Shown: positions 12,134 through 49,243, counted from the first letter of the stretch. The stretch: DNA of 64,000 nucleotides from an uncultured Elusimicrobia bacterium (GCA_903879915.1 CAIRNJ010000043.1:1-64000), one strand, 5' to 3'. Numbers and translations: made by a program. The notes: generated by a model not told the origin, from the letters alone.

Positions 12134-12170
12134 TTAGACTGGCGGGAATCTAACGTTCACGGAGGTCAAA

Positions 12171-12920: not shown

Positions 12921-12938
12921 GAGCGCCCGCGGGCAGCG

Positions 12939-12973
12939 AGCCGGTCCGGCCTTAAAACCGGACCGGCTTTTTT
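12939..12973 (+). terminator. Rho-independent terminator after the slipin gene
   Basis: An 11-bp perfect stem, AGCCGGTCCGG (12939-12949) with CCGGACCGGCT (12958-12968), has an 8-base loop and a run of six T (12968-12973). Confidence 0.88.
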
Positions 12974-12997
12974 CCCCCGCCCGCAGCGGCCCCGCCT

Positions 12998-14104: not shown

Positions 14105-14116
14105 GGAAAGTCAAAC

Positions 14117-16819
<2,703 letters not shown>

Positions 16820-16826
16820 GAAACAT

Positions 16827-17150: not shown

Positions 17151-17151
17151 C

Positions 17152-17799
17152 ATGACTACAGGCGTTCGTTCCGCTAAAAAAATATTTTTACTGCCCCTGC
17201 TGGCGCTGACCCTGCCGGTGCTGGCGCAGCTCCCCTCCCTGCACGCCCAGGTGCCGCCGCCGGGGCAGGACGCCGCCTTCGACTATACCCCGGAGAAAGG
17301 CGAGCAGATAGAGGAGCCGGAAAGGCCCACCGTACGGATAAACCTCAACGACGTGGAAGTGATACGCCATCCGCAGATGGGAACTATCTTCATCTCGAAA
17401 CACCGCTGGCGCAACTGGGTGGAAAGGTCGCTGTACCTGATACTGGTGAACATCGCCCTGCTGGTCATACTGGGCTCGCTGCCGAAGAACGACGAGAACA
17501 ATCTTATCGTTTCTTATTTCCTCTCGGGGATCAGCTTCATGCTCGCGTTCTGGATCTTCCTGTGCGCGCTGCTGCTTTTTAAATTCAGGTCCTTGACCGG
17601 CGTTTACGTGCTGCCGGTCTCGGCGGCCATGTGCGGGGCCACCTATTACCTGCTGCTGAAAGTGAAACAAGCGGACATCTCGCTGTCGGACCTGAAAGAC
17701 TCCTTCAGGCAGCAGAACCGCGCGGGCAGCTCCGACCAGCGCCTGTCCTCGGTGGACGGCTCTCCCGGCGACTGGCCGGAACAGGATTTCCTTAAGTAA
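17152..17799 (+). CDS. Unknown exported/multi-spanning membrane protein
   Basis: A 215-residue protein with no family I can name. It begins with a signal-peptide-like stretch (about 1-32, basic start, LLPLLALTLPVLA core, ending SLHAQ). A proline-rich region of about 50 residues follows, then three hydrophobic segments (about 87-104, 112-141 and 146-166) and a polar C-terminal tail of about 45 residues. Only one base separates it from the preceding membrane protein, suggesting a two-protein module. It is followed by the convergent PorV-type gene. Confidence 0.6.
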   Translation: MTTGVRSAKKIFLLPLLALTLPVLAQLPSLHAQVPPPGQDAAFDYTPEKGEQIEEPERPTVRINLNDVEVIRHPQMGTIFISKHRWRNWVERSLYLILVNIALLVILGSLPKNDENNLIVSYFLSGISFMLAFWIFLCALLLFKFRSLTGVYVLPVSAAMCGATYYLLLKVKQADISLSDLKDSFRQQNRAGSSDQRLSSVDGSPGDWPEQDFLK

Positions 17800-17815
17800 T
17801 AAGCTGAGGCGCAGC

Positions 17816-17852
17816 GCGGCGGGAACAGGAAGCCCCGCCGCTATCCGCATTT
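17816..17852. terminator. Possible terminator between convergent genes
   Basis: GCGGCGGG (17816-17823) pairs with CCCGCCGC (17834-17841) over a 10-base loop. A short TTTT run comes only 8 bases later (17849-17852), so the + strand signal is imperfect. It is the only hairpin found between the unknown membrane gene (+) and the PorV-type gene (-). Confidence 0.4.
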
Positions 17853-17862
17853 TCCGCCGCGG

Positions 17863-18792
17863 TCAGAACCCTATGCGGAAACCGAAACGGTGCACGCTGC
17901 CCAGGTCCCCGAAAGGCAGGAAAGCGTAATCCACGTCCAGGCCGGCCACTTTTACGCCGAAGCCGAGGCTTAGCCCCGCTTCGGAGCCGAGGTTGGCGGT
18001 ATCGTAGCCGAACTTATAGCCGCCGCGCAGGGCGAAGCTCGGGCGGACCCAGTATTCCGCGCCCACGGCCGGGTAGATCTTTTCGTCCAGCAGATATTCG
18101 CTGACCTCGCCGGCCACGTTCAGGGCCTTCGAAGCTTTATAGAGCAGGCCGGCCCTCAGACAGACGGGCAGCGGATCGGCCTCCTCCTCGAATTTCATTT
18201 TCGTGCCGAAGTTCTGCAAGGCCAGCGAAAGGTTGATCTTCGGAGTGGCGCGGTAAATGGCCCCGACGTCCGCCGCCAGCGCGACGGCCGATTTATCGTA
18301 TATCGTCGAGCGGACCACTTTCACGGCGAAGCCGCCGTCCAGGCGCGGCAGCGCGCCGGGCATGACGTCCTTAGCCGCGTAAGCCAGCGTAACGGCCATG
18401 TCGCTGGAACCGAAAGTGCCCAGCTCGGGCACGACGCCGGCCGAGTCCGAAAGCCCGCGCCTTTCGATCCCTCCGACCGTAAGGAAAGTCGCCCCGAACC
18501 CGAACCGGCGGCCGCCCGCCGTGCCCGCGTAGGAAAGGTTCCCCATCTTGGCGTCCTGCAGGTAGGTCGAGAAATCCAGCGCGGCGGCCCGCCCGTCGAA
18601 CTGGGCGAGACCCGCCGGGTTTATGAAGACCGCGCCGGGATCGTCCGCCTGGGCGCTGAAAGCGCCGGCCATGCTTACCGCGCGCGGGCTCATGGCCACC
18701 TTCAGGAAGTTAGCCGCCGTGGTGCCGGCGCCGGAAGCGTAAGCCCCGGCCGGCAGGGACAGCGCGATAGAAAGAATAAATAGCTTTTTCAT
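17863..18792 (-). CDS. PorV/PorQ-family outer-membrane protein
   Basis: A 309-residue exported beta-barrel protein. It has a signal peptide (about 1-19, ending AYASG). The N-terminal signature FLKVAMSPRAVSMAGAF followed by DPGAVFINPAGLA is typical of PorV/UPF0164-type proteins in the FadL-like group. Alternating hydrophobic strands end in RFGFRIGF with a terminal Phe, as in outer-membrane barrels. In the type IX secretion system PorV shuttles cargo bearing a C-terminal sorting domain to the attachment complex. Here it lies directly downstream of a giant protein with such a domain. No other T9SS core gene is visible. It is the last gene of the minus-strand giant-protein locus. Confidence 0.82.
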   Translation of the reverse strand: MKKLFILSIALSLPAGAYASGAGTTAANFLKVAMSPRAVSMAGAFSAQADDPGAVFINPAGLAQFDGRAAALDFSTYLQDAKMGNLSYAGTAGGRRFGFGATFLTVGGIERRGLSDSAGVVPELGTFGSSDMAVTLAYAAKDVMPGALPRLDGGFAVKVVRSTIYDKSAVALAADVGAIYRATPKINLSLALQNFGTKMKFEEEADPLPVCLRAGLLYKASKALNVAGEVSEYLLDEKIYPAVGAEYWVRPSFALRGGYKFGYDTANLGSEAGLSLGFGVKVAGLDVDYAFLPFGDLGSVHRFGFRIGF

Positions 18793-18811
18793 AAAATACC
18801 TCGGCCACTTA

Positions 18812-18894
18812 ACGCCCGTCGGGCGTACTAGCTGAATTCGCCGCCTGGGCGCGGAAGCCGCGCTGAGCGGCTCCGCGTTCCCGCGGCGGAATTC
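18812..18894 (-). promoter_or_regulatory. Nested inverted repeats between the giant gene and porV
   Basis: Two structures lie in the 123-base gap. A short palindrome, ACGCCC/GGGCGT, spans 18812-18826. A longer imperfect cruciform spans 18834-18894: GAATTC-GCCGCC outside pairs with GGCGG-AATTC, and GCGGAAGCCGC (18851-18861) inside pairs with GCGGCTCCGC (18867-18876). Neither is followed by a T run on the minus strand. It could be an intra-operon processing, stability or attenuation element. Confidence 0.45.
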
Positions 18895-18915
18895 CCCTGC
18901 GCTGCACCGGCCTGA

Positions 18916-21900
18916 CTACTTTATTATCGCCATCTTATGGGCCTTGCTGCCCAGCTGTTTGCCGTCCAGGTAGGTCAGCATGAAGTAGACGCCGGAGGCG
19001 CATTTCGCCCCGTTGTCGTTCCTGCCGTCCCACTCGGAATAATATATCTCCCCTCCGGCCCTGACCCCGTCGGTTATAGTGCGCACCTTCTCGCCGGCCA
19101 CGTTATAGATGACGAACTTCATGTTCCCCGACTTCCCGGCGGGCAGGTGATACTTTATCAGCGTGCCGTAGGTGGCGTACGGATTGGCTATCCCGGACGC
19201 GCCTCTGTCGGAGCTCAGCGCCACGCTCTTGCTCTTCAGGTCGAACGGGTTGGGCATGTTGTACACGACGAAGCCCGCGCCCGCATAGGCCACGCCCGTG
19301 GGCGGCATGGCCGTGAACACGGCGAAGCGCCCGCTCTGTGTGGTGCTCGCGGCGGAAGGCACGTAGCGGCCGTTTACGACCGCGCTCATCCCGAGGCGCT
19401 TGCGGCCCAGCGGGGTGTCAATGCCGCCGGTCCCCTCGTGCGCGCCGGTCAGGGCGGCCACATCTACGGACAGCACGCCCAGCACCGGGTCCAGGGTGTA
19501 GTCGCCGGGCACCTCCAGCCAGCCGCCGGTAGCGGCGTCGTACTGGTAGATGCGCAGGTTGCCGTTCTCCGGCGCCTTGTTCTTATCGTAGGTCAGCGTC
19601 AGCGTGAACGGCTTATTGATCGAGGCGTTCTCGAGCTCCATGTTATAGACCTCGGAAGCCATCAGGTCCTGTATGGCCTGCGCCAGGTTCAGGTCGCCCT
19701 TGGCGGTCCTGATGGTGCGCACAGCGGGCAGCCCGCTGAAGAAGCCGCCCACCAGCCCGTCCGAGGCAGAGGCGCGGTATACCGAGGAGCGGTAGCCCGA
19801 AGTACCGCTGGCGGTGCCGCTGGAGGTAAGCGCGCCGGCGTCCAGCTCGATGCCGGAATAGTCCCCGTTCCCGGGGTCCATCTGCACGTCTCCGCCCTGT
19901 ATGGCCTCCTCCTGTATGTACTGCTCGGCCCGGCCCTGGTCGACGGAGCTGTAGATCACGGCCTTCTCCATCGTGTTCGCGCCGTCGCCGGCCGAGACGT
20001 ACACGGTGTAGTACAGCTGCGTGAGCGACTCGGTGAAGCGGCCCAGGTAGGTGTTGTTGGGCCCGGGCATCAGCGCCACGGCCGCGGCGTTGACGGCGTC
20101 GTACACCGCGCCCTCGTTCACCGTACAGACAGGCATGGAGACCAGCTGCTTGGGCGAGATGATGGTGACGTCCACCTGGCCGGCCCCGGCCGGGGACTTG
20201 ATCACCGTCACTTTTATCTGCGGCGCCACCTCGCACATGACTATGTCCGGCAGGTAAGTGACGCCTTCCGTCACCGCGTCGCCGGCCACGTCGAGCGTTG
20301 CGGGCAGCTTGCCAGGGTAGAAGGCAGTGACCTTGTAGTTGTGCCCCGGCACCACGCCGGAGAGGTCGTAATCGCCGTCGTCGTTGGTGGTGGCCTCTAT
20401 CTTGGCCAGGTACTCCGACGGATGCAGGGTGTTATAGGTCTCGTCGTAGGCCACTACTGTGACCCCCGCCGCCGTGAGCGGCGCCGGGAACTTGCTCAGG
20501 TACACCTTGCCCGACATGTTCGACTGCGACGGCGTCAGGTAGAAGTCCAGCCGCGCGGAATCGTCGCCGGTCGGGGAACCGGCCAGAGAGGTCTTCTGGC
20601 CCGCTTTCACGAAACCGTCGCGCGTTACTTCCAGGCGGTAGATGCCCGACGGCAGGCCGCTGAACCTGAAGGAGCCGTCGCCGGCCGTAGTAGTGAACTT
20701 CTCCACGGTCCGGTGCTTCAGGTATACCACGGCGTTGTCCAGGCCGGAGCCGGTCACGGTGCTCTTCACCGTACCGTAAATATCCCCGGTGCGCACGGTC
20801 TGCTCGTCGAAGTTGAACGGATAGCTGCCGTTATACGAGGAGGCGAGCGGCAGGGTTATCTCCTTGGTCACGGGCGGATAGTTGGGGTTGGAGAATACCG
20901 CCGTATAGCGCCCGGCCGCCAGGCCGGACACCATGAACCGGACGGGATGCGCCGCGAAATACGCCCGCACCAGGGCCTTGTCCTTGGTCTGCAGCGCGGC
21001 CTCGAAGTCCGCGAACTGCGCGCCGCCGGGCAGGCCCGCGGAATACCCGCGCAGGTCGCCGGCCGCGTCATAGACCATCACGGCGGGGATCACCGAGTAT
21101 ATCTCGCTGAAGTTGGAGAATACGCGGTCCAGGTCGGCGTCGGAATAGATCCGCTCGCCGAGCATGGTCCCCTCCAGCAGCTCCGCGCCGGGCGCGCCGC
21201 TCACGCTGACCGGCAGCGGCTGGGCGTCGGTGCCCAGCCCCGCCGCGCTGGTGGAGCGCTGCACGGAGAAGCCGCGCACCTTGGCTATAAAGGCGGCGAA
21301 GTGGTCGTAGCTGGCGGGACTCCCGGCGGGAGCGTACCGCGCGCCCATCGTCAGGTAGAAGTCGTACTTCCCGATAAGCATCACTTTGGGGTCCCAGGTC
21401 TGCGTCGTGGTGCTGTAGCTGAAGGCGAAAACATCGTCGCCGAACAGCAGTTCGGTGAGCTTCTTCTGGCTCATGGCCACGCCGGATTCCACCGGGATCA
21501 TACGGTAGGTCCAGGCCGGGGTAGAGATGACCGGCAGCGTGGAGCCCGAGACCTGCGGCTGCACCACCAGGCCGTCGGCCAGCTTCAGCGTGACCTGCGT
21601 GACCTTGCCGGGCACTACGGCCACGTTGGACACTGCCGGCGCGGCCCAGCGGAAGCCCAGTCCGTTGGGCTTCATGGTCACGGTGTACAGGCCGGGCGCC
21701 AGGTTGGGGAACTCGAAGGCGCCGTAATCGTCCACGCTCCAGGCCTCGTTCACGTCCACGTTCTGCCCGCGCAGCAGGATGTCCAGGCTGTGGGCCTGCT
21801 CCTCAGGCAGGTTCGCGGCCGGCTTGTAGCTGGAGCCGTCCGGCATTTTTACCACGCCTTTGAGCGAACCGGCCTTCGTCACCACGAAGTTCATCGTAAG

Positions 21901-24900
21901 CGAAAGCGTGGAGGTGGACTTGAAATCAGCCCTGTCGTCGAAGGCGCTGACCTCGGCCCACTCGCTGGCGGTAACGCGGGTGTAGTACACCATGCCCGTG
22001 GACAGTTTTATGCTGTAGGTGGCCACGTTCACGGTATAAGTGCCGCTCAGCACCGCGAAGCCCATGGACCTGTCGGCGCAGATGCCGCTGCACTCCTGCA
22101 GCGCCATCACCGTCACCGGGGCCACGGTGCTTATCACCAGCGGGTTCACCGCGCTCACGGTGTAGGTGGTCACGAACGTCACTGAACCGCTGAGCGCGGC
22201 GTAGTCGTTCTGCTTCTGGGGCATGATGTTGAAGTTGATATCCCCGTAGCTCTGGCAGGCGCCGCCGGCGGCCGCCAGTTTCCAGTTCCTGCCGGCGGTG
22301 CAGCCGGAGTTGGGCAGCCCTGCGGCGCCGGCGCTGGAGATCACGATGCGCGCGTCGTCGGCGTCTACCGCCGTCAGGTCCTGGTAGTTGCCCTCGTTGA
22401 GGTCCAGCCATTTGCCGAAGAACGCCACGCTCATGCGCAGCTGTCCGTCGGGCAGGCCGTTGAGCGTGGCCGGGCTGAACAGGAACGAGCCGTCGGCGGC
22501 CGTTCTGGCCTTGGCGTCCGTGTACATTCCTTTCCCGTTCTTGTAGGTATCGGACCCGCTGTACCAGCCGTAGTCCCCTACCACCAGCACGTCGGCGTTG
22601 GGCACAGGAACGTCCCTGTAGCGTATCACGCCGCGCAGGGTATAGGTGGCTTCCTGCAGCTGGAATTCGCGGTAGACGGTGGCGCCCGTAGAGACGGAGA
22701 TCCCCTCGTACAGGCCGCGGTTATAGCCGGCCTTCTGCGCGGACAGGCTGTATGCCGCCGCGGTGCTTACCACGTTATAGAAAGAGTACTTGCCGTTCAC
22801 GTCGGTAAGCGTTTCGTAGACGTTGTAGTCGCAGCTGCCGCTCGCACAGGGCTCCGTGGAATTCCACACCCTTACGCGCGCCGCTTCAAGGGGCGCCAGC
22901 GTCCGGGCGTTCCTTACCACGCCCTCCACCGAAGGCAGCGTAGTGGAAGCGCCCACTTCGAAGCCGCCTGCGGACGAGCCCGTTATGGTGGACATATTGA
23001 CCACGTACAGGGAAACGGCCGGGAAAGCCGCGCCCATAGGAACGCCGCGGGCGAGGCTCCGGCTGGGAATGGTCACGCCCAGCGTGTACGCGCCAGGGGC
23101 CGCGGGCGGCACGTTGCTGACCGTGAAGGTAACACTGCTGGCGCCTACGGCCACCTGCGCTATACCGTATGCCGCCCTCTCGCCGGTCTGCGCGAAGAAG
23201 ACCTCCGCCATAACGTAATCTCCGGCCGTGGCGGAAGTGACCGTCACGGTAAGCGGATAATACGGGGAGGCGGCGGGCCGCGGAGACAGGATATACTGCT
23301 TGGTGGCGTCGGCGTTAAGCTGCACGAAGTAGCTGCCGTAGGGGTCCATCTGCTGGGCCATTATGCCGGGCGCGAAGCCCTGCTTGTCCAGCGCGATGAA
23401 GTACTGCTTGCCGGCGGGCACCTGCGCGGTGTAAACGCCCGACGAGTCGGTCACGCCTCTGCGTATACCGGAGGCGTCGATGCCGCCGGTCTGCGAGTAG
23501 GGGACGAGCGACACGCCCACACCGGGCAAAGGAGTGGCAACCGCCGCGCTGGAAACCTTCACGGTCAGCACGGGGTTTACGGTCAGGGCGCTGCTCTGCT
23601 TGTAGCGGTACAGGCCGTAGTAGCCGTTGAACTTGCCGCTCACGGAGACGAAGCCCATGGTCCCCACCGCCAGGTCGAAGCCCTCGTCGGAATTTGCGAT
23701 CGTGCTGTAGGCGTCGCCCGCGATGGCGCTGGTGTAGAATTCCTGGCTCCACAGTTCGGAACCGGACCTGGAATACTTGCGTATCCAGAGGTTCTTGCCC
23801 TGGTTGATGTCGTAGCGTTCCTGCGAGCCGGTCACATAAACGCTGCCGGTAGTGTCAAGCTCGATGCCGTAGGCGGCGTCGTTGGCGTTGCCGGGGCTGT
23901 TGTAGAGCACCGGGAACGCCCAGTCGGCGGCACTGAGGTCGGCCGAGCTCTTGATCACAATGGCGTCGTTGGCGGTATCTGCGCTGCGCAGTTCGCCCGC
24001 TGTATAAACATAACCGGAGCTGTCCACTGCCACGTCATAGCCTGCGCCCGCCGCGGCGCCGCCGGTGACGGCGGTACCGAGCTGGCCTAGATCGGACGTG
24101 CGGAAATGCCCGGTCCACAGCTGGGGGCCGTTCACCGACTGATACGCGGAACCGGCCAGGTACAGGTCGGTCCCACGCACGGCTATGCCATAGGCCGCGT
24201 CCGGCCCGCTGCCGCTGCCGGAGAAGTTAGCCGACGAAAGGATGACGCCGGCGGTACTGAGCTTGGCCAGGAAGATATTATCGCCCTGCGCGGAGCCGGT
24301 ATAGACCGAGCCCGCGGCGTATACGTTACCTGACGCGTCCAGCGCCACGCCGTAGCCGGTATCGTCCCCGTGGGCGAAGTCGTAAACGGTCTTCCACACC
24401 AGGCCGCTGGCGCCGAACTTCATGACAAAGAGATCCTTGCCGTCGGCAGCCGCGGGACCGCGTTCATAGCCGGTCAGATAGAGATATCCGTCGGCGTCCG
24501 CGGCCATCCTGTTGGCCCTGACGGCGAAGGATTCGCCGGGGGCGTAGTACTTGGTCCAGACCGGGGTGAAAGCGGAGTTGAACTTCTTTATGATCAGGCC
24601 GCCGCTGCCGTTCCAGTCCGTATCGGCCACCATGTAAAGGTTGCCGGAAGCGTCGCGCGCCGCGCCGGGAAACTCTTTCTCCCCGTCGTTGTAGCGCTGC
24701 CCGCCGCCCGTAACGATCAGCTTGGCCTCGTTCGGATACATGGACATAGCCGAGAAAGCCGAGCCTTCCGCAGGGCGGGCCGAAGCGGCGCGCACGCCCA
24801 CAGGCGTGAAGGTCCCGGCCGAAGTCGAAACCCACACCTTGAAGTATTGCGTTACGCTTTCCAGCCCGTAAACCACGCGGGCCACGCTCATGCCTTCGCG

Positions 24901-39900: not shown

Positions 39901-42900
39901 GGTATAGGCGATGGACGAGACGAGTACCATCGCGGAAGAGGCGAATTTGGCGGTCACGAAATAAGTAGTGCCGCTCTGCAGGCTGTCGCCGGTGACATAA
40001 ATGTAACCGTCGTCATAAGCGATGCCCTTGCCGCCGTCCACGCCGCCCGCGTCGAAGAGCACGGGCGCGCCCAGCTGGGCCAGGTCCGCGTTGTATTTCA
40101 CGATCTTGTAGTCGTTCTGGCCGCCGGGTTCTCCGGCGTTGGAGCCGATCACGTAAACGTTGCCGTAGTTATCCAGCGTCAGATCCCTCGCATGAGTATC
40201 TCCGGTAAGGACCGCCGCGGAGCTGAGCACAAGACTGTGGTCGTATTTCGCGGTCACGAAACCGGTAGAACCCTTGCCCGCCGCGTAGACGCCGTTGTCG
40301 TTGACAGCCACGCCGTCGAACGATTCCAGCCCGGACAGAGTGGCGGAAGACACCATGTTGCCGGCCAGGTCGTATTTGATCACGACAGCGCCGGCAGGCA
40401 CGGTCATCCCGGCTACATATACATTCGCGCCGTAGAGGGCGGCCGCGAACCCAACATCCATATCCCCGCCGTCAAAATTCACGCCGGTACTTTCCGAGAA
40501 AGCGCCGGTAAACCCGTTCTCGGTAGTCGCCGGGAGCATCCGTTTCAGGCCCGGCAGATCGTCGCCGCCTATGCTCATTTTCCAGCCGGCCAGCGCGCCG
40601 CCCGTGCCGTCGGGCGCGATCGCGGAGTTCACGGGCGCCCGGAAAGTCCCGACCATAGAACCGTCCGCGTAGGCGTAATTCCCGGCCTTGTCCATTTTCT
40701 GATAGTAAACTTTATATGCAGGCGGCTCCCAGGTGCTCCACACAAAATGGTAAGCGGAAGAGGAATAAATAAGAGTGGTAGGGGTCCAGCCAAAACTGCC
40801 GATACCGGCGAACTGCCCGTTCTGCGCCCAGCCGGGCGAAAATTCGGCCGCGGCGGATGACGCACGCACTATGCGTATCGCGTTGTTGCCGGTGGAATAA
40901 AGCACCGCGAAGCCGTCCTCGTCCTTCGCTATCTTCATACTGTACTCGTTCGTCGCCAGATAATCGGAAAGCTGCAAAGGAACGCTCCAGCCGGCGGAAG
41001 CGTCGCCGGCAGAATCGAACCGCCCGGCAAAAAGCCCCTGCCCTCCGCCCATGGAACTCGTCCACACCAGGTAAACGCCGCCCGCGCCGTCGTTCATTCC
41101 TTCGACAGTGGCGCCCTCGTCGCCGCTGGACTGCGCCAGCAGCTTCTTGTTCCAGGCCAACGTGCCGTCCGCCGCCACTTTCGAGCCGAAAAGCGCCAGC
41201 CTGCCGCCGTTGTTGCCGGGCCAGGCGAACAGCAGGGAGCCGGAGCCGGCGTCTACGCCGCGGGCGTTGCCGTTGAAATCCCCGGTCGGAATAACTGTTC
41301 CGGTAGACTCGGTCACGCAGTTCCCCGCGGACGGCCACATGCATATTCCGTAATTATTGACTTTCTGTACCGCCACCGTCATACTGTTGCCGGCCGGATA
41401 GCCTAACAGCGCGAAAAAGCCGCCCTCGGAGTTCTCATGGAATTCTCCGCCCAGAACGGCGGAACTGGAGATCTGCCTGCCGCCCGGGTCCCACTGCTCA
41501 GAGCCGTCCGGCGTATAACGCTGCGCGTAAGCGATACCGTCGCCTTCGAACCACGCGGCGATGACGCCGCCGGCCCCGTCGGAGCCCGCGAAAATATCGC
41601 TGCTTTCCCCCGCGTAATAAGCCGAAGAAACGGCCACCGGGCCCCACAGAGGGGAATTATCGGCGTCCCGGCGCACCGCGAAGATCCTGCGCAGGCCGTC
41701 TTCGGCCACGGTGCTGTCGTAGACCAGATACGCCCCGCCCGCGTTGTCGGGCACCATCTGGAACTGCTTGGACCCGTCCACGCCGCCGCCGAGGCCGCCG
41801 CCGGGCGCGCTGCCGCTCGAGGTCAGGTTGATGCGCCTGGTCACGATATTGTCGGAGCTGGTGCCGGTCACGAAAACATCGGAGGAACTCAGCACCGCCA
41901 TGGAGTCGCCGGAAAGCCCGGCGTAGACCGACTTCACGTTAAGGGCGGAGTCCAGACGGTAGGTGTTGGCATAGAACGAGACATAAGGCGTATGCGTATT
42001 GAAGTCAACGGCCACCGCGCCGAACGCCCAGGCGCCGGGGAGCGTAGTGGAGGATTTGACCGTAAGGTCGACGGAGCTGTATTTCAGGAGCACGCCGTAG
42101 GCCACCGGGCCAGAAGAGGAAGTGCCCAGAACGTAAAGGTCGTTCGTAACGGGGTCGAGCGCCATGCCGCTGGACTGATTGCGTACTCCTCCGGAAAACG
42201 TGGTCGACGACTGCATGCTCAGCGAATCGCTATATTTATAGGTGACGAAGAGCGGGATGGCGGTCATGGCGACCGATCCCTCCCGGTAGCCCAGGCCGAC
42301 GAAAATACTGGCAGGGGTCCCGTCCAGAACGGCAATACTTTCCGAAGTATCAAAATAGCCGGAGGGATTGCGCACGACCACGGAACCCGCCGGGGACAGA
42401 TCTCCCGTAAATCTGTACAGCGCGACGCCCGAGGCTCCGGTGTAAACGAGCGCGTACACATACTCCACCCCGCCCGAATAACCTACCGCGATGGCGCCGA
42501 CGTTAGCGCTGGCCACGGTCGCGGACGAGAGCAGGTTCAGGGCCGGATTATACTTCATGATGCGGCCGGCGCCGAAAGCCTGGCCGCTAACGAAAAGGTT
42601 CCCGGCCTGGTCCACCGCCGCCCCTCCGGCATAATCCATGGCGGGCGTGCTCACGGCGGCCGAAGCCAGCTTCACGCCCATCATGTTGTACTTTATGACC
42701 GCCCAATCGTAACCGCCGGCGCCCTGGGAAGAAGAACCGACTACATAAAGGAAAGGCCCGCCGCCCGCGGTATGCGTGTCTATAACGACTTTTTTTACGC
42801 GGTCCGAACTGCCGCCGTCGTAAACCGCGCCGCCCGGCTGGGAGAAGTCGCCGGTGAACGAGGCTTGGGCAAGGGCCGTTCCGGAGGAGCCGGCGGCGAA

Positions 42901-42948
42901 AAGCGCCGCCCAGACCAGATTAATGAAAATATTTTTTATCTTGCGCAT
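18916..42948 (-). CDS. Giant secreted beta-propeller repeat protein (8010 residues)
   Basis: One uninterrupted 24-kb frame. Signal peptide about 1-28. About ten SBBP-like propeller regions (A modules, GNVYVxG / xxVKY patterns), B modules (about 400 residues, MVPDGAGGAY to GGALAGWK) and C modules (STxDVSPxYY to IYPIxSAP). D modules (carboxypeptidase-regulatory-like, GNIYYEG to SGIDxEL) follow B. Order: A, B, A, then two A-C-B-D units (about 1175-3455), A, a Big_5-like domain (about 3830-3935), A-C, A-C, Fn3-like and propeller pairs (about 4975-6450), then carboxypeptidase-regulatory-like domains (about 6450-7750). The C-terminal ~110 residues (NPFDLKSK, VYNVAGEKVRTI-like, WDGRNDNG, SGVYF) resemble FlgD-Ig/T9SS type A sorting domains. 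Likely a cell-surface or secreted adhesin or matrix protein; function unknown. Shine-Dalgarno AGGGAGAA. Confidence 0.9.
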   Translation of the reverse strand: MRKIKNIFINLVWAALFAAGSSGTALAQASFTGDFSQPGGAVYDGGSSDRVKKVVIDTHTAGGGPFLYVVGSSSQGAGGYDWAVIKYNMMGVKLASAAVSTPAMDYAGGAAVDQAGNLFVSGQAFGAGRIMKYNPALNLLSSATVASANVGAIAVGYSGGVEYVYALVYTGASGVALYRFTGDLSPAGSVVVRNPSGYFDTSESIAVLDGTPASIFVGLGYREGSVAMTAIPLFVTYKYSDSLSMQSSTTFSGGVRNQSSGMALDPVTNDLYVLGTSSSGPVAYGVLLKYSSVDLTVKSSTTLPGAWAFGAVAVDFNTHTPYVSFYANTYRLDSALNVKSVYAGLSGDSMAVLSSSDVFVTGTSSDNIVTRRINLTSSGSAPGGGLGGGVDGSKQFQMVPDNAGGAYLVYDSTVAEDGLRRIFAVRRDADNSPLWGPVAVSSAYYAGESSDIFAGSDGAGGVIAAWFEGDGIAYAQRYTPDGSEQWDPGGRQISSSAVLGGEFHENSEGGFFALLGYPAGNSMTVAVQKVNNYGICMWPSAGNCVTESTGTVIPTGDFNGNARGVDAGSGSLLFAWPGNNGGRLALFGSKVAADGTLAWNKKLLAQSSGDEGATVEGMNDGAGGVYLVWTSSMGGGQGLFAGRFDSAGDASAGWSVPLQLSDYLATNEYSMKIAKDEDGFAVLYSTGNNAIRIVRASSAAAEFSPGWAQNGQFAGIGSFGWTPTTLIYSSSAYHFVWSTWEPPAYKVYYQKMDKAGNYAYADGSMVGTFRAPVNSAIAPDGTGGALAGWKMSIGGDDLPGLKRMLPATTENGFTGAFSESTGVNFDGGDMDVGFAAALYGANVYVAGMTVPAGAVVIKYDLAGNMVSSATLSGLESFDGVAVNDNGVYAAGKGSTGFVTAKYDHSLVLSSAAVLTGDTHARDLTLDNYGNVYVIGSNAGEPGGQNDYKIVKYNADLAQLGAPVLFDAGGVDGGKGIAYDDGYIYVTGDSLQSGTTYFVTAKFASSAMVLVSSIAYTGPVSVDANSPVGEKLAVNPVTHDVYFAGNSAKDTVLALKYDRDLAAQQAIGHFSNPSRYAQATGLALDAEGNVHIAGSYNSGAEDYAALLKYDPGLVFLSSAASVQPYGYDSMGVALATATGYAYMTGLYASDGNWENQAKFDMRTVRFEPLGGQPAPQPFMGSFSEPGGAVYDGGDMDGGFGAAFYGSNVYAAGVSAPSGAVVLKYDLEGTIVSSAVMAGLESFNAVVVNADGVYAAGKSAGGFVTAKYSHDLVLSSAAVLPGESNARDLTLDTDGNVYVVGANDVQTGYKFVKYDADLNQLGLPVAFNAGGTGSGKGIAVDSGNIYITGDSLIGQTTYFITAKYNSSMVFLSSVAYVSDYAGADNPGGEKLAVNSVTHEVYFAGSYGTPTDTIDGNILTIKYSPDLVQLSTAVFRHFYAEGGDIALDTYGNVYTLGINQDVDSENYAVVLKYNPSLVLLSSATQRFATGYVPASIAVDTATLNSYVTGIDFGADKVPSSYNMRTVRFEPLGGSVEPVVYLSTADISPEYFMKGEEAAVLSITPYTDSGETLFSSMTVALNPGGNTCAFSAAALYYDTDHNDVWNAGDRLVSSAALNCSANVTFVPGETVGTQKTAYFITVTPTGGDSLKVAVYSRASFKFGAAMADQSVYPIVSAPKGFGQGSSMFKMVPDGAGGAYMVYDSTVAEGGLRQVFVARVGADNTPLWSTAITPYYRSVKDSGDLFAAADGSGGVIAAWFDGNSVARAQRYNASGAHQWVTGGLQISSGATQGGEFTANAQGGLFALFGYPSATGMAVAVQKIDNDGQCQWPAPGDCVNVATGTALSVGDSVGEGRGIDGGSGSLIFVWAGGNGGRMALFGSKIAADGTLAWSKTLSAPTSSDEGGNVEGISDGLNGAYVVWTSSTGGAQALFGERFDVNGDPYPGWNNALQLSSYVNAIDGNRYEISLARDEDGFAVLYSTGGKGKAEVRIVRSSATADAFSAGWALDGKLAGQAVDDTLGLIYDGSAYHFAWNQWALLPPGNFHQIDYQKMDKSGKFSFTNGYVAGMAPDCLRIDIVSDGAGGALTGWKTKTGGSDLPVLRAIPAGTSVPEYTGTIAGNIYYEGQQQGLFHIAISTIAGDIYPEDLTYSSQTLEVPGGYSFTGLLTPNTYYIQAWLGSGGHTAGMPGGAYDSLSAGGGKFMSEPLYLPAGAAAESVNITLRDFGQVSGTILAPQNGPVLLVAAPFEPGNPYNEVTLPSTGAYTTWIASSSVGYSLKAWIDANENHDLDGGEYYGERSLAVNSELLEQSGIDLELAQYSTSAFSGNFSQPGGAVYNGGDTDMGLGAAFYGSSVYVAGLSAPGGAVVIKYDLEGTFVSSSAFEGAESFDAVAVNANGVYLAGKGPAGFVTAKYDYDLSLSSVAVLPGDNHAKDLALDAEGNVYVIGSNAGEPDSQNDYKFVKYDADLNQVGLPVTFDAGGADSGSGIAADGGDIYVTGTSLIDGATSFVTARYDSALAFLSSAAYTDAYYNSGLPGSGKLSVNPATHDVYLAATRGGEDNRQMLTVRYSRDLLQLGTAVFPGGNYGLGMDVTLDADGYVYALGKDYDGSYDNALVAKYTPALVFLSSAASMPAGGGYLGTGIALDSADGTSYVTGMSDDKLRPADIRTVRFAPLGGFSPPVVSLSTRDVSPMYYMKGEEAAALSITPRTDQGETTFSGMAVRVNTGGDSCSIRAIALYHDQNQNDTWDAGDRLVSSSTLECGVTDHSFSFPDETVSTRTAAYFVAVTPNGGTIGLEILSHYAFTFGAGMAEQSIYPIAPATKGASDGSSGFRMVPDGAGGAYMVYDSTVGAGGLRQMFVERVGADNTPLWGPTPITPAYYPIKDNGELFAASDGSGGVIAAWFDGSGAARAQRYNAAGAHLWGTGGRQISSGAVEGGEFTANAQGGFFALFGYPSAAGMAVAVQKIDNDGQCQWPAPGDCVSVATGTALPVGESIGEGRGIDGGSGSLIFVWAGGSGGRTALYGFRIAADGTLAWSNKALSAPTSSDEGGNVEGVSDGLNGAYVVWTSSTGGAQALFAERFDVNGDPYPGWNSALRLSSYINPAYYVINVARDEDGFAVLYSTGWNGQSEVRIVRSSATAAEFAAGWAQDGKLVGRTLDNTQGLVYDGSAYHFAWSQWVAFKGGNSHQISYQKMYRNGAVAYPDGYAAGEAPDCLNIDIVSDGAGGALAGWKTKRGGADVPELKAIPADNNVPEYSGAIQGNIYYEGSKQGAFHIAISTIANDIYPESLTYSSQTLETPGGYSFSSLPTPNTYYVQVWLGEGGHSAGMPGGAYNSLSAGGGKFASEPLYLAAGVTAKNINITLRDFGLVSGTILAPQDGQVRLAAESAAAGQPYNEATLSSTGAYTTWIASSSVDYTLKAWIDANDNYKLDQGEFYGERPLTVNSGLPEQSGIDMELSPYSSVIFTGNFSETGGAVYDGGANDAPHRLAVDTAALNGPFIYGAGTSSFGDDEAFIVKYDKYGLMAASAAFNVSGHPSEANGIAVGADSIFVAGNYDGTAHDGKCVILKYNKDLLLQSSATYSSYGYCIANDIAVSRSGGVYVTGHVNPSDESRDLVILKYDDNLHFATSVALSGSYDKGMEIRTDETGNVYAVGYSSVAGSFQILTLKYDPELVFISSAVFSSNQATDENRVSLSLGQTGVYVAGQTGGAYSHGTLLKYDRDLVLRSSVAFDAGADSGWQGVGVNSAGEVFAAGNVHNGNDRDFLTARYTPDLVFVSSMVYDNGHEDAATDIALDGSDNLYVGGFTSNGKNDDWRIVRYAPSDFGGGLPPYIVYSVPADKAVNVSSGIRSIDLTFNEPVFPADNSAIGTNLKFKKANGTEHTSRFVSFGLLADTTSTYRIGLFNADLSSATTYVVEAASFTNSGGGMMVFSSFSFTTGSGPSGPVFSGNFSVPEGANFDGGYMDMGLGAAVYGSNVYAVGMSSSIGAIVIKYDLDGIMVSSSALAGAESFDGVAVNASGVYAAGKGPAGFVTAKYSHDLVLSSAAVLPGENHAMDLALDTDGNVYVVGSNTGELGSQNDYKFVKYDSDLAQQGSPVIFNAGGVDSGRGIAVDGGNVYITGDSLIAGTSYFVTARFDSSSMAFLSSAAYANAYLSGMSLGSEKLAVNANTHEVYFAGTSGTKGDSSILTLRYSADLRQLSAAASPRADATGMDVALDDDGNVYTLGNLFDGLNYAALTKYNSALVLLSSAAMRFDTSYAPVSVAVDTATGKSYVTGIDFGAGVGDKDSPKWNMRTVRFDPLGGSMPIVRVSTRDVSPELYLAGKETAALELTLRTVSGETTLSGIRVHVNPNGDYGKIAAVGLYSDANGDGLWDTSDPLVSSAAVDAAAVTLPIAEGMIYPTGGGCFVTLTPYFSAAGASVNVAVDSTSSFIVGGLMDEQAIYPITSAPRPVQAIAGAFSGDFSQAGGAVYSGPDYDLGTAIARNPANGDLYVTAVSSVAGREQALLVKYNSSGVMTASATVVNAGGMYLQGVAVNANGVYAAGGVGGANNSVALKYDLGLRFVSSATIAGVHSPMLALDAAGGVYLSGTSDNSLEYRLAKFGPNLTGPSTAAFSAGTGASAAGIAADSGSVYMSGISLLAGATNFVTVRFNAANLAFVSSASYSGAYVEESLKWARLAVNPATHDVYLAGTEGSEEARHILTVRYSQNLRQLASASFPGGNYQLGFDVALDSAGYVYTVGKDNDGGSLLPAPRNGRNFGPGRGGGVDRPALLKYSPNLVFISSAPSSPEISRNYLPFALALDTATGYSYVTGGGFDSESDMHTFRFAPMSGRLPVVSVSTADVSPAYYLAGQEAAALSVTLRTNTGATDIRGVKVGVNPSGSYSDIASVGLYLDSNANGVWDSGDYLVSSAAVAAAFVDLPVTDGIIDTNPLGTFITLTPALAGEGNNINVVVPSSAAFDITGDMAQQAIYPVASAPKLVKFLARLTDLSSEPGANLRHVNLSWTYPQDISFGHYVIRYSTNPADLAGPNVYDAQTVTGTIAGVTAGEKWSHNITGLEPVIVNARLFPYYFAAWLFNGTSTSAVSNPAASMYFPETEAKDRDAALRTSASMSVRLESRARYARSSAGMYSAVSFESNGDSFIALNAPGGYSLYYDSTTPMVLRDLAVDGAGNAYALVQQEYSALVVKIGADGSVLNVFPIVSSETAKALAFGAGAVYAATEYSGETGGSRIRLRKLDASSLALAASLDVSSGPGLYDEVNGLAFTLDAAGRKYVYAAGASGSYPLTGTLRKFADTGAAISTAVPGNWPVQYSNAGGGNSRALAVKADMNGNLVVTGSEQRYDLNQGENIWLNRYTPYGAAMFSSPARYNNAQSNSDDIPAGLDLDSFGNIYISGYTDMWNLRQGYNMLLVKFGPGGQFLFGRVYDSGSDSHDAGLDVFVSSDNYAHVSGMFAGAFGVYSMPQGSSASAQFFTAAEGPYTGSADLMWNYPAALPAGSTYYVQYSTASAPVWSSASAQIVVSTGPLYPGAVQTQTVGGLPVLRYPGLEGAETRGNLYKFKVWITSGGLTTALPEAQTFAKTPSAYDNTQDFGRERLSFMSGLYGPDGGIAVDGAYVYHAFGGYADGASAGFGLRKYNTGQSLEWTKFFNHKDDRAYYVAKVVRDAAGNFYLVGSQRPASDSAAAAGYEDLAADKDLWIAKLNAAGDLVWSYSADASGLNRMDELYGAAVEGSALYVVGVASSASAGLDILARKYDISPSTYPALLWTYSKNGSGGGDDFGYGIAVGTGAVYLTGTVDNGAANKDIIVQGLNKTSALPGAPIVFNSAGNGNDTGYGLAVTTTGFVYVAGSTASVSAAGNAALLKFTLGGALVWDRYYNGKDNLDDAAYAVELTTSGAIAAGYETSSGQGRVSSYRKFTLAGEPEWSRGLNLSAGDDYASALAVDASGRVYSAVSLDGRPGFYYFPEPDFNVLAAPYGVPGSVRLEWLSQYDVPAGSVFSVQYSTYDGGWNSSGAQVRYAADADIREGMSVARVVYGLESVTQYFKVWVSTSAGTFTPVGVRAASARPAEGSAFSAMSMYPNEAKLIVTGGGQRYNDGEKEFPGAARDASGNLYMVADTDWNGSGGLIIKKFNSAFTPVWTKYYAPGESFAVRANRMAADADGYLYLTGYERGPAAADGKDLFVMKFGASGLVWKTVYDFAHGDDTGYGVALDASGNVYAAGSVYTGSAQGDNIFLAKLSTAGVILSSANFSGSGSGPDAAYGIAVRGTDLYLAGSAYQSVNGPQLWTGHFRTSDLGQLGTAVTGGAAAGAGYDVAVDSSGYVYTAGELRSADTANDAIVIKSSADLSAADWAFPVLYNSPGNANDAAYGIELDTTGSVYVTGSQERYDINQGKNLWIRKYSRSGSELWSQEFYTSAIAGDAYSTIANSDEGFDLAVGTMGFVSVSGKFNGYYGLYRYKQSSALTVNPVLTVKVSSAAVATPLPGVGVSLVPYSQTGGIDASGIRRGVTDSSGVYTAQVPAGKQYFIALDKQGFAPGIMAQQMDPYGSYFVQLNADATKQYILSPRPAASPYYPLTVTVTSATAGDYVMAEVFFAQTGERAAYGIAQVAVGASSVTFTVSNVPPAAPGAYTLGVTIPSRSLARGVPMGAAFPAVSLYVVNMSTITGSSAGGFEVGASTTLPSVEGVVRNARTLAPLEAARVRVWNSTEPCASGSCDYNVYETLTDVNGKYSFYNVVSTAAAYSLSAQKAGYNRGLYEGISVSTGATVYREFQLQEATYTLRGVIRYRDVPVPNADVLVVGDYGWYSGSDTYKNGKGMYTDAKARTAADGSFLFSPATLNGLPDGQLRMSVAFFGKWLDLNEGNYQDLTAVDADDARIVISSAGAAGLPNSGCTAGRNWKLAAAGGACQSYGDINFNIMPQKQNDYAALSGSVTFVTTYTVSAVNPLVISTVAPVTVMALQECSGICADRSMGFAVLSGTYTVNVATYSIKLSTGMVYYTRVTASEWAEVSAFDDRADFKSTSTLSLTMNFVVTKAGSLKGVVKMPDGSSYKPAANLPEEQAHSLDILLRGQNVDVNEAWSVDDYGAFEFPNLAPGLYTVTMKPNGLGFRWAAPAVSNVAVVPGKVTQVTLKLADGLVVQPQVSGSTLPVISTPAWTYRMIPVESGVAMSQKKLTELLFGDDVFAFSYSTTTQTWDPKVMLIGKYDFYLTMGARYAPAGSPASYDHFAAFIAKVRGFSVQRSTSAAGLGTDAQPLPVSVSGAPGAELLEGTMLGERIYSDADLDRVFSNFSEIYSVIPAVMVYDAAGDLRGYSAGLPGGAQFADFEAALQTKDKALVRAYFAAHPVRFMVSGLAAGRYTAVFSNPNYPPVTKEITLPLASSYNGSYPFNFDEQTVRTGDIYGTVKSTVTGSGLDNAVVYLKHRTVEKFTTTAGDGSFRFSGLPSGIYRLEVTRDGFVKAGQKTSLAGSPTGDDSARLDFYLTPSQSNMSGKVYLSKFPAPLTAAGVTVVAYDETYNTLHPSEYLAKIEATTNDDGDYDLSGVVPGHNYKVTAFYPGKLPATLDVAGDAVTEGVTYLPDIVMCEVAPQIKVTVIKSPAGAGQVDVTIISPKQLVSMPVCTVNEGAVYDAVNAAAVALMPGPNNTYLGRFTESLTQLYYTVYVSAGDGANTMEKAVIYSSVDQGRAEQYIQEEAIQGGDVQMDPGNGDYSGIELDAGALTSSGTASGTSGYRSSVYRASASDGLVGGFFSGLPAVRTIRTAKGDLNLAQAIQDLMASEVYNMELENASINKPFTLTLTYDKNKAPENGNLRIYQYDAATGGWLEVPGDYTLDPVLGVLSVDVAALTGAHEGTGGIDTPLGRKRLGMSAVVNGRYVPSAASTTQSGRFAVFTAMPPTGVAYAGAGFVVYNMPNPFDLKSKSVALSSDRGASGIANPYATYGTLIKYHLPAGKSGNMKFVIYNVAGEKVRTITDGVRAGGEIYYSEWDGRNDNGAKCASGVYFMLTYLDGKQLGSKAHKMAIIK
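32585..36010 (-). repeat. Tandem unit 2 (A-C-B-D, about 3.43 kb) inside the giant gene
   Basis: Second copy of a direct tandem repeat: propeller A, C module, B module and D module (about residues 2313-3455 of the giant protein). It matches the copy at about 36010-39425. One identical run of about 69 bases is seen at 33732-33800 versus 37164-37232, an offset of 3432. Boundaries are set from protein motifs and are approximate. Confidence 0.8.
36010..39425 (-). repeat. Tandem unit 1 (A-C-B-D, about 3.43 kb) inside the giant gene
   Basis: First copy of the tandem A-C-B-D unit (about residues 1175-2313). Near-identical DNA in the B module (37140-37650 against 33710-34210), with small in-frame differences such as one extra codon, shows a fairly recent duplication. 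The A module is also related to the preceding A unit (39430-40510) and to later ones, at lower similarity. Confidence 0.8.
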
Positions 42949-43029
42949 AATAATTCTCCCTGGAAAATCAAACGCCGCAGCAGAGCAGCCTGAAACTGAA
43001 GATCATCCGCAGATCCCGCACCTCGCACT

Positions 43030-44280
43030 TCAGAACTCCCATTCCAGGCCCGCCAGGTAAGTGTTGGCCCGGTAGTTGTACCTGTAGTTCGCCTCGTACC
43101 GCATATTGGAAGACGAGAGCTGGTAGTTGTAGACCGCCCGGGTGAACAGTTTTTTATAGACCGGGAGCCTTACCGACAGCGAGCTGAGCCAGACGGTCTG
43201 GTTTATCTTCGACGGGAAGTAGTTGCCGCCTTCGTCCTGCTTCAGGCGGCCCAGGTAATAAAGCCGGCTCCAGTCCAGCGTCAGCCCGAATTGGGCCCCG
43301 CTCTTGAAGACGAAATTCACGGCGGGGGCGAACCCGAACTCCACATAGCTGTAATAGTCGGACATGTATTTGAAGGCGGAGGAATCGTAAGACGCCTGGT
43401 TGGAGGCCAGGTACGCCACGCGCGCGGCGGCGCTCAATTGCAGCGGCCTTAGCGTCCGGGTGGCCCTGAAATTAAGGTTCTGTATCACGTCGGCGCGCTT
43501 GTCGCTCTTAAAGGGAGACTGGCCCACGGCGGGGTTCGCCGCCAGCGCCTGGTCGCCGTACAGGCGGTAGGTCACGTCGTACCCGGCCTGCATTACCAGC
43601 GGGTCGGGGAACCAGGTGTACCCCAGCGCCAGCCGGTGACTGGTATTGTCCATGGTATCGGTGCCGGCATTCTGCGACAGCTGGTTGAAGGTGTCGGTAT
43701 CGTTGAACACCGACTGGGACCGCGAAAGCAGCGTGCTGAAGTTGGGGTAGGCGACCTGATAGAAATCGTAGGATTCGGTGAAAGTGCCGCGGGGGCGCTC
43801 CTGCTCCGCCTCGAAACCGAAGGAGAGCGTCGCGTAGTCGAAAAGCCCCTTCCCCCACTGCTCGTCCTTAGTTTCCTTTATAGCCGCCTTCGAATAGGAG
43901 ACGCGGGGCTTATATTTATCGAACTCGTCGGTGTACACGTATTTGAGCGAGACCGTGTGCGTCTGGCGCTGGCGGGTAAGCACGCCGCCGCCGGCCAGCT
44001 CCTGGATGTCCTGGGTGCCGGAATAGTTGCCGGAGTAGACCGGGATCAGGTCGCTGCTCTCGCCGAGCTTCAGCGCCGGCGACAGGAAAGCGTCGAACCG
44101 GCCGTTGAAAGAAGCGGCTTCGGAATCCAGATAGTACTTGCCGCCCAGGGCGGAAATGCTGCCCACGGGCGTTACTTTCACTTCGGAGTAAAGCGCGGGC
44201 GGCGAGGCCAGCACGAAAGGCAGGACGGCGGCCGCGGCCGCCAGGAACTTTATTTTTGTATCGAGAAGATTTAACCGCAT
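43030..44280 (-). CDS. Predicted outer-membrane beta-barrel protein
   Basis: A 416-residue exported protein with no recognised family. It has a signal peptide (about 1-32, LAAAAAVLPFVLASPPALYS). Many alternating aromatic/polar segments about ten residues long follow (for example QTHTVSLKYVYTDEF, HRLALGYTWFPDP, AAARVAYLASNQ). The C-terminal strand NTYLAGLEWEF has a terminal Phe, the usual outer-membrane assembly signal. About 16-18 strands could be fitted, but I have not modelled this. It lies between the FecR-domain gene (46 bases) and the giant gene (81 bases) on the same strand, so it may serve as porin, anchor or exporter for the giant protein. Confidence 0.7.
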   Translation of the reverse strand: MRLNLLDTKIKFLAAAAAVLPFVLASPPALYSEVKVTPVGSISALGGKYYLDSEAASFNGRFDAFLSPALKLGESSDLIPVYSGNYSGTQDIQELAGGGVLTRQRQTHTVSLKYVYTDEFDKYKPRVSYSKAAIKETKDEQWGKGLFDYATLSFGFEAEQERPRGTFTESYDFYQVAYPNFSTLLSRSQSVFNDTDTFNQLSQNAGTDTMDNTSHRLALGYTWFPDPLVMQAGYDVTYRLYGDQALAANPAVGQSPFKSDKRADVIQNLNFRATRTLRPLQLSAAARVAYLASNQASYDSSAFKYMSDYYSYVEFGFAPAVNFVFKSGAQFGLTLDWSRLYYLGRLKQDEGGNYFPSKINQTVWLSSLSVRLPVYKKLFTRAVYNYQLSSSNMRYEANYRYNYRANTYLAGLEWEF

Positions 44281-44326
44281 TATCCCTCCAGAAATCTTTT
44301 ATTTTCTCCGCCGCTCGTTCCGGCCG

Positions 44327-45772
44327 TCAGAACCGCAGCAGGCCTACGTCCTTCAGCAGCTTGGCGGAATACATCACGTCGATGCTGCGCCCGCCGAAAA
44401 GCGAACTATTGTACACCCGCTCGAAGTTAAGCCGGTCGGTTATCTGGTCCTGGGTCTCGCCGCCGCCCAGCCCCCTGGCGAAATCGCCGGTGTGAAGGAT
44501 AGTCCCGTCGTCGAAGAGCACGAAGTCCTGCGCGCCTATCCAGCTGCCGTCGGCGTAGGTGTTCCTGGTTATAGAATAAAAGACGTCGTCGCCCGCCGGG
44601 TTGGAGGTCACTATGCCTATGGCCGTGGGCTGCCCCAGCCAGGTGAAGGAGGCCGCCACGTTCCTGGACACGTTATAATCCGTCTTGGTCCAGAACCACT
44701 TGCCCAGGCCGCCGTTGAGGCCGGCCTCGGCGGGGCCCGCGGCGTAAAAGGAGTAGTTCCCGAAAACCAGCTCGTAGCGCGGGTCGGAAAGGCTGCTGTT
44801 GAAGTCCATGCGGCCCCCGGAAGCGTCCTCGGTAACCTTGTCCTCGGTGTTGGACATCACGCTGTTCATGTCCGTCAGCTGCCACTGAGGCGCTACGGAG
44901 CCGGGCGACGAGAGCATGTTGGCGGTGGCCAGGGAAAGATCGGCCGGCAGGGCGGTGTTGAAAGTGAACAGGATCTTGCCGAAATCGAAGCGGTCGTCGC
45001 GGGTATTGAGGACCACGTATTTAAACTGGTTATCGGCGGGCCGGATGGTATATTCCTCCATCCGCACGCGGTAGCCGAAAGCGTCGGTGGCCACCTTGCG
45101 GGTCTGGAACTCCGCCGACTGTATCTCCTCCTGCGCGCGGGCCAGCACGGCTTCCTTGGAGATCTCGCTGTAGATCTCCCTTCTCGCCTCCAGCCTGGCG
45201 CTGCCCAGAGTGGAATCCATGTCGCTCGGCTCGTCCGGGTTATCCCGGGGTCCGGTGAAGCCGCCTCCCCTCGTGATGTCCGCGCGCTGCCCCTGGCGGA
45301 CCAGGCCGCTGTTGCCGCTGGCGTCCCCGGCGAGCACGCTGCCCTCGTAGACCTCCACGCTGGTGGAGCCGTCGGCGTCCGCCTGCACCATGAAATCCGT
45401 GCCGCGCACGGCGCAGACCGCGGAAGGGGTGCGCACCTCGAATTTCTTGGAGAATTTCTTCACCCAGGACCGCACCCTGCCGAAATACAGCCCCAGCGAG
45501 ACGGAGTCCTTGTTTTCCGTGACCATTTTAAAGGAAGAAACGGGCGCCAGTTTTATTTTCGAGCCGTCGTCGGTGACGATCTCAGCGGTGGAAGCCCTCG
45601 AGGTGCGCAGTTCGTCGCCCGCAGCCAGGGGAACGTCGGCGGCCGTCAGCCTGGTCCAGGAGGTCTCGCCGCTCTTTTTAAGCGCCACCTCCCCGCGCCA
45701 CTGCGCCACATGGGCGGCATCGGCGGATCGGCAGATGAAAAGAAATGCAAGTGAAACAAGAAGTTGTTTCAT
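44327..45772 (-). CDS. Exported FecR-domain protein
   Basis: A 481-residue protein with a cleavable signal peptide (about 1-19, LLVSLAFLFICRSADA). Its N-terminal FecR domain (about 45-150) contains GDELRTSRASTAEI and VRTPSAVCAVRGTDF, then VYEGSV. Classical FecR is an inner-membrane anti-sigma regulator, but this one shows no transmembrane helix or cytoplasmic anti-sigma domain, so it is probably periplasmic or surface-bound. A middle helical stretch (about 180-225) is followed by a C-terminal domain of about 250 residues with beta-like patterns that I do not recognise. It is the first gene after a consensus promoter and leads the barrel-giant-PorV locus. Good Shine-Dalgarno AAGGAG. Confidence 0.8.
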   Translation of the reverse strand: MKQLLVSLAFLFICRSADAAHVAQWRGEVALKKSGETSWTRLTAADVPLAAGDELRTSRASTAEIVTDDGSKIKLAPVSSFKMVTENKDSVSLGLYFGRVRSWVKKFSKKFEVRTPSAVCAVRGTDFMVQADADGSTSVEVYEGSVLAGDASGNSGLVRQGQRADITRGGGFTGPRDNPDEPSDMDSTLGSARLEARREIYSEISKEAVLARAQEEIQSAEFQTRKVATDAFGYRVRMEEYTIRPADNQFKYVVLNTRDDRFDFGKILFTFNTALPADLSLATANMLSSPGSVAPQWQLTDMNSVMSNTEDKVTEDASGGRMDFNSSLSDPRYELVFGNYSFYAAGPAEAGLNGGLGKWFWTKTDYNVSRNVAASFTWLGQPTAIGIVTSNPAGDDVFYSITRNTYADGSWIGAQDFVLFDDGTILHTGDFARGLGGGETQDQITDRLNFERVYNSSLFGGRSIDVMYSAKLLKDVGLLRF

Positions 45773-45844
45773 ACAACGCTCCTTGAACCGGAGTTCTGCG
45801 CGGAAAAAACGCAGTCAAATTTGATCAAAAACCCAGCAAGTCAA

Positions 45845-45873
45845 ATTATAAATTACACAGCGTGGCCTGTCAA
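45845..45873 (-). promoter_or_regulatory. Consensus sigma-70 promoter of the giant-protein locus
   Basis: On the minus strand the -35 box TTGACA (45868-45873) and -10 box TATAAT (45845-45850) are both exact consensus with a 17-base spacer. Transcription should start near 45838, about 65 bases before the FecR-domain gene. It is the only exact consensus -35/-10 pair I saw in the window. Confidence 0.88.
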
Positions 45874-49234: not shown

Positions 49235-49243
49235 ACTCCACGC

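Follow-up and report, generated by a model that had tools for sequence, protein, structure and literature searches.

A candidate T9SS-type surface-display locus in Elusimicrobiota that pairs an 8,010-residue protein with a PorV/PorQ-family outer-membrane barrel

PorV of Flavobacterium johnsoniae binds the tail of the cargo where it docks, at SprA's lateral opening (PMC10994853). Type B cargo such as SprB has cognate SprF-like carriers, which are usually encoded directly downstream (PMC9143113; PMC12618676); such cargo is thought to remain on its carrier, with PorP–PG1035 as a further case of anchoring (PMC9143113). PorZ may stay uncleaved on PorQ (PMC10202324). The T9SS has been placed in Bacteroidota (PMC12618676), and reviews describe its genes as confined to that phylum and its relatives in the FCB group (PMC11285876). 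Here we describe a locus from the phylum Elusimicrobiota that resembles the SprB–SprF system in layout and differs from it in tail class and carrier family.

The window, a stretch of 64,000 nucleotides, belongs to contig C43 of a 3.37-Mb genome that is 99% complete. Four open reading frames (ORFs), all on the minus strand, follow one another in the order FecR-domain protein (481 aa, 44327–45772), outer-membrane β-barrel (416 aa, 43030–44280), giant exported protein (8,010 aa, 832.8 kDa, 18916–42948) and PorV/PorQ-family outer-membrane barrel (309 aa, 17863–18792). A Sec-type signal peptide is recognizable by eye at the N terminus of all four proteins. The promoter (45845–45873, minus strand) consists of TTGACA and TATAAT with a 17-nt spacer, identical to the sigma-70 consensus in 12 of 12 bases. 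ORFs, order, signal peptides and promoter agree with the initial annotation, which had described four co-directional exported proteins behind one consensus promoter. Many relatives also carry a near-consensus promoter upstream of the FecR gene, often about 70 nt away, with at least 11 of 12 matches in 27 of 61 loci and a mean best score of 10.2, compared with 8.3 in shuffles. Expression of the locus from this housekeeping promoter is probably strong and constitutive.

A fifth operon gene (17188–17850, minus strand) was considered and dropped; relatives mostly carry a similar-sized gene there on the opposite strand. The intergenic hairpin between the giant and PorV-family genes (18800–18917, minus strand; minimum free energy (MFE) −60.1 kcal/mol, z −2.1) was rejected as a conserved regulatory element, as neither its sequence nor its presence is conserved in relatives. 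Hairpins of unrelated sequence occur between these two genes in some relatives and perhaps protect the mRNA or set the ratio of the products. An Rfam search of the window returned no match. About 2 kb from the locus and divergent from it lies a Tol–Pal-like cluster (47924–50524, plus strand), with OmpA/Pal-type, TPR (CpoB/YfiO-like) and PD40/TolB-like genes in a row beside UbiA and polyprenyl synthetase genes.

The giant protein has a pI of 4.6. It opens with an array of SBBP propeller-type repeats from residue 1 to about residue 4979 (28012–42948), with copies up to 84% identical, followed by a second block of SBBP/delta-60-type repeats at about residues 5201–6470 (23539–27348). It also contains one Ig-type Big_5 domain and four carboxypeptidase-regulatory-like (CarboxypepD_reg) domains, the best of which spans 20590–20781, and its last 110 residues (18919–19248) form a FlgD-Ig/T9SS type-A-like sorting tail; all these features share the minus strand of the gene. 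Such tail domains are carried by the C termini of PorU and PorZ, and FlgD-Ig domains occur also in flagellar FlgD, outside the T9SS. The tail was already noted in the initial annotation, which proposed a search with sorting-domain models. The outcome of that search is divided: FlgD_ig matches above its cut-off (32.8 bits), whereas TIGR04183 reaches 16–17 bits against a cut-off of 23. That cut-off is passed by 11 other proteins of the genome. Across the 22 tails compared, the PorU and PorZ models match all 22 and TIGR04183 matches 18 at E values up to 0.1; the type B model TIGR04131 matches neither the giant nor the tails.

We could rule out that the giant ORF is an assembly artefact, because the giant reappears in a sister metagenome-assembled genome (MAG; G047), where it is spread collinearly over three contigs, with 93–95% DNA identity, 91% protein identity across the first 3,307 residues and a single repeat difference of roughly 330 bp. 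In relatives, the giant ranges from about 1,500 to 6,774 residues. As its C terminus is conserved and its N-terminal repeats are variable among close relatives, 8,010 residues lies at the long end of this range, and the length is, to judge from these sequences, a local expansion. Two further giant ORFs are present in the genome, both on the minus strand of contig C58 (5,692 aa, 2863–19941; 4,712 aa, 21634–35772); the 5,692-residue giant has a TIGR04183 tail above the cut-off and no PorV-family match beside it.

The 309-residue protein encoded directly downstream of the giant belongs to the PorV/PorQ family (NF033709, 156.6 bits, cut-off 90). The initial annotation had called it PorV; the family holds, but the protein falls below both equivalog cut-offs (PorV, 55.6 against 250 bits; PorQ, 117.7 against 220 bits; NF033710 and NF033711) and scores nearer PorQ. 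Its match to the solved PorV structure (PDB 6h3i) is weak (E 1e-4), and there is weak similarity to Pfam FadL too.

This arrangement recurs throughout the genome, which contains 17 tail-bearing ORFs and about 22 PorV-family loci, 16 of them above the NF033709 cut-off on one stretch and one more with two stretches combined. For 13 of the 17 tail-bearing ORFs, a PorV-family match in the same orientation starts within the next 300 bp downstream (P ~4e-25 under a null in which PorV genes are random genes), and one more lies at 1.9 kb; counted by direct adjacency, four of the 17 tail proteins have no PorV-family neighbor. On gene-level inspection, the ORFs of the tail–PorV pairs are close-spaced or overlapping. 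Distances among the genome's own tail paralogs correlate with those among the corresponding PorV-family paralogs across all 14 pairs (Mantel r 0.46, P 0.0025) and across the 13 adjacent pairs (r 0.60, P 0.0004); removal of three pairs, two of which are near-duplicates on contigs C62 and C81, leaves r 0.34 and P 0.03. This correlation suggests that tails and PorV-family proteins are cognate partners. Contrary to the initial annotation, the principle is not restricted to one giant, since 13 of the 17 tail-bearing proteins each come with their own PorV-family gene and the giant itself varies from 1.5 to 6.8 thousand residues in relatives.

The same pairing bears on the idea that the tail, with its FlgD-Ig domain, is just a common surface domain, that the giant is displayed by another route and that its PorV-family neighbor, a FadL-like porin unrelated to it, stays in place by operon habit. 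We regard this idea as improbable. The existence of FlgD-Ig domains outside the T9SS, the weak FadL similarity and the subthreshold score of the SprA-like protein described below are all in its favor, but it has to contend with 13 of 17 tails paired with PorV-family genes genome-wide, with a gene order that persists across the phylum and with a SprA homolog in the genome (E 2.5e-38).

That homolog is an ORF of 1,834 residues on contig C91 (at about 30.0–35.5 kb), which matches the SprA/Sov model TIGR04189 in four stretches at 131 bits, against an equivalog cut-off of 200. We call it a remote SprA homolog because it scores below this cut-off and because neither its single sequence nor its profile matches a PDB entry. 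Within the family, 58 of 59 genomes have a SprA-like homolog; in the phylum-wide sample, 76 of 90 do. A remote translocon homolog is thus present, one of the T9SS parts that the initial annotation proposed to look for. Peptidase C25 (PorU) and GldM were each found in 0 of 59 genomes and GldN was not found in the window's genome, in searches run without a positive control, and GldL scores 12 bits, at chance level. Among the points that stand against a T9SS-type model are the TIGR04183 score of the giant and the SprA-like score, both below cut-off, PorU, GldM and GldN not found in these searches, the weaker Mantel signal without three pairs and the four tail proteins that have no adjacent PorV-family gene. 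At L060 6266–12529 (contig C91, minus strand), the SprA-like gene is directly followed by a gene of the ComF family (DNA-uptake type); in the four relatives read out, a gene of 213–243 aa, similar in size to the ComF-family gene, occupies this position.

These results also weigh on the fate of the tail. If the PorV-family protein were a transient shuttle that hands the giant to an unrecognized sortase, the tail would be removed and the giant attached to LPS or released, in keeping with a type-A-like tail and with the normal shuttling of type A cargo by PorV, as in P. gingivalis (PMC12618676). We consider such a handover unlikely: no C25 peptidase was detected in 59 of 59 genomes (again in a search without a positive control), the 309-residue protein scores nearer PorQ than PorV, and a single shared shuttle does not fit a genome with about 22 PorV-family loci, of which 13 each stand immediately behind a tail-bearing gene. 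Given a type-A-like tail, a PorQ-leaning carrier encoded by the next gene downstream and no PorU in the genomes searched, retention of the tail on its carrier is the simplest model.

The first two genes of the locus encode the FecR-domain protein and the 416-residue barrel. The FecR-domain protein bears out its label, with a match to PF04773 at 64.9 bits (residues 53–146, 45335–45616, minus strand). Its AlphaFold (AF2) model has a pLDDT of 83, and Foldseek (E 3e-5) matches it to anti-sigma factors, in their periplasmic domains. An alignment of homologs reveals a conserved region C-terminal to the FecR domain, for which there is no Pfam match. The 416-residue barrel, described as unassigned, indeed has no match in Pfam or NCBIfam; AlphaFold predicts 16 strands (pLDDT 78.5), and Foldseek matches the model only to generic outer-membrane barrels, namely pores and transporters (E 6e-7). 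A TonB-dependent plug domain was not matched, and matches of the barrel profile to actin-capping protein in the PDB were at chance level and were discarded.

The initial annotation had cast the locus as a dedicated set in which the FecR protein is the regulator, the 416-residue barrel the exporter and the giant the cargo. The FecR fold, its Foldseek matches to anti-sigma periplasmic domains and the fact that FecR and barrel genes adjoin the cargo in nearly all loci would fit such roles. The domain make-up and the neighboring genes lend no support to the regulator, as the protein has a signal peptide followed by the FecR domain in place of a cytoplasmic anti-sigma domain, none of the nine neighbors scanned around the locus is a sigma-factor gene, and the near-perfect housekeeping promoter is kept in relatives. 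The barrel as exporter is likewise unsupported: its fold is generic, with no specific Foldseek match to any export protein, and a homolog occurs elsewhere on the contig in a FecR set that lacks a giant. Overall, this division of roles is very improbable.

The latter set lies about 27 kb from the locus (L186 8749–12637, corresponding to 72749–76637 of contig C43, minus strand) and comprises a FecR-like gene (618 aa, recognized by eye), a gene of 259 aa and a barrel homolog of 411 aa. As the FecR–barrel pair is separable from the giant on the same contig, we read it as an accessory pair that may be likened to PorE. Sets of FecR, a 250-aa gene and barrel, like that on contig C43, are also found in loci L119, L121 and L122.

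To assess conservation across the phylum, we counted genes in 80 loci by a six-frame hidden Markov model (HMM) scan, which was chosen because longest-ORF calling had placed some FecR and barrel genes in antisense frames; for a few family relatives, the gene was absent from the longest-ORF calls and was found by six-frame scanning of the same or related records. By barrel, the nearest relative is the MAG LacPavin_0920_WC70_MAG_61_9 (98% identical), and barrel-bearing relatives bear Elusimicrobia names. Of the 59 family genomes, 51 contain the barrel, and the order FecR–barrel–giant–PorV recurs in the family relatives read out. Among the 61 loci with sufficient flank, 56 have FecR no more than 2 kb from the barrel, and PorV directly follows the tail in all 30 loci in which FecR, barrel and tail are present and at least 600 nt extend past the tail, although the scanned loci are kin and were picked via the barrel, so these counts are not independent events. 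The four-gene order is therefore kept in relatives, and neither of the outcomes that the initial annotation named as refuting it was observed; its regulator and exporter labels find no support. Permuted orders also occur, namely giant–PorV–barrel–FecR, often in tandem with the main unit, and giant–FecR–barrel–PorV. Loci in which the tandem giant–PorV–barrel–FecR unit lies directly upstream of the main locus are among L088, L091, L094, L097, L098, L103, L107, L110 and L113.

In a sample of 90 genomes from the phylum, the barrel is present in 34, spanning 29 of 42 genera. None of the 52 genomes of families f2 and f9, which are small (1.0–2.0 Mb), contains it, against 34 of the 38 others. These two families are perhaps host-associated, and many of their members retain a SprA-like gene though the barrel is absent. 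Barrel and FecR genes were also seen on contigs labeled Sumerlaeota, Caldiserica and Clostridia (L131, L136, L160 and L118), through either binning error or transfer.

Taking up the observed gene order, protein families, conservation, tail–PorV pairing and SprA homolog, we propose that the locus is probably a T9SS-type surface-display system of Elusimicrobiota, with SprA-like export, a PorV/PorQ-like barrel as private anchor and a FecR–barrel accessory. The four genes would be expressed on one transcript and all four proteins exported by Sec. The giant would then leave the periplasm through the SprA-like translocon, recognized by its C-terminal Ig-like tail, and the PorV/PorQ-family barrel encoded downstream would take up the tail at the translocon. 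The tail may be retained on this barrel as a private membrane anchor, in the manner proposed for PorQ–PorZ and SprF–SprB. The FecR protein and the 16-strand barrel could form a second pair, a periplasmic and outer-membrane accessory complex that places or tethers the giant.

More tentatively, Elusimicrobiota may possess, outside the FCB superphylum, a T9SS-like pathway that operates without PorU and the GldLM motor, in which most cargos would have their own PorV/PorQ-like carrier and permanent anchor and the FecR–barrel–giant–PorV module would be the most elaborate version. NCBIfam models can already name PorV-family and sorting-tail proteins, so it is the system-level picture, rather than any single family, that appears to be new. 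Of the papers naming both Elusimicrobiota and the T9SS, the one consulted contains no account of such a system, and an earlier description, for example in bioRxiv or in subscription papers, is possible. A phylum-wide SprA homolog and tail-adjacent PorV-family genes make the origin, minimal parts and energy source of the T9SS testable. If each cargo has its own PorV-family carrier, the rule known from SprF would hold for a further class of carriers and tails, and the model offers a mechanism by which a little-studied phylum could display very large proteins.

With FecR-type signaling systems (FecIRA and PupIRB), the locus shares the FecR domain fold; unlike them, it has neither an anti-sigma domain nor a sigma-factor gene among the scanned neighbors, and its barrel does not match a TonB-dependent plug. 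The closest known system is sprC–sprD–sprB–sprF of Flavobacterium johnsoniae (Rhodes 2011, cited in PMC12635249; PMC9143113), a four-gene operon that, like the present set, centers on a giant repetitive surface protein (SprB, 669 kDa) and has a dedicated FadL-type outer-membrane carrier encoded directly downstream. That system needs SprA, of which the Elusimicrobiota genome has a remote homolog. The gliding motor of F. johnsoniae has no evident counterpart here, with GldM not found in a search without a positive control and GldL without a credible match. The tail of SprB is of type B and SprF belongs to the PorP family, whereas the Elusimicrobiota locus combines a type-A-like tail with a carrier of the PorV/PorQ family (NF033709); the likeness is one of layout. 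In tail and carrier class, the locus is nearer to PorZ–PorQ of Porphyromonas gingivalis, in which a type-A-like tail is suggested to remain uncleaved on a cognate PorV-like barrel (PMC10202324): the 309-residue protein is nearest PorQ (117.7 bits), and the PorZ model matches all 22 tails. PorQ and PorZ, however, are parts of the T9SS that serve the PorU attachment complex, whereas the partner here is the giant and PorU was not found. Finally, the operons of F. johnsoniae that combine PorE, a type B cargo and a SprF-like protein (PMC12618676) resemble the locus in joining a cargo to a barrel that serves as its own carrier and to an accessory protein of the envelope, and they are likewise repeated several times within a genome (PMC12618676); in the Elusimicrobiota locus, the putative accessory consists of a FecR-domain protein together with another barrel, and the carrier is of a different family.
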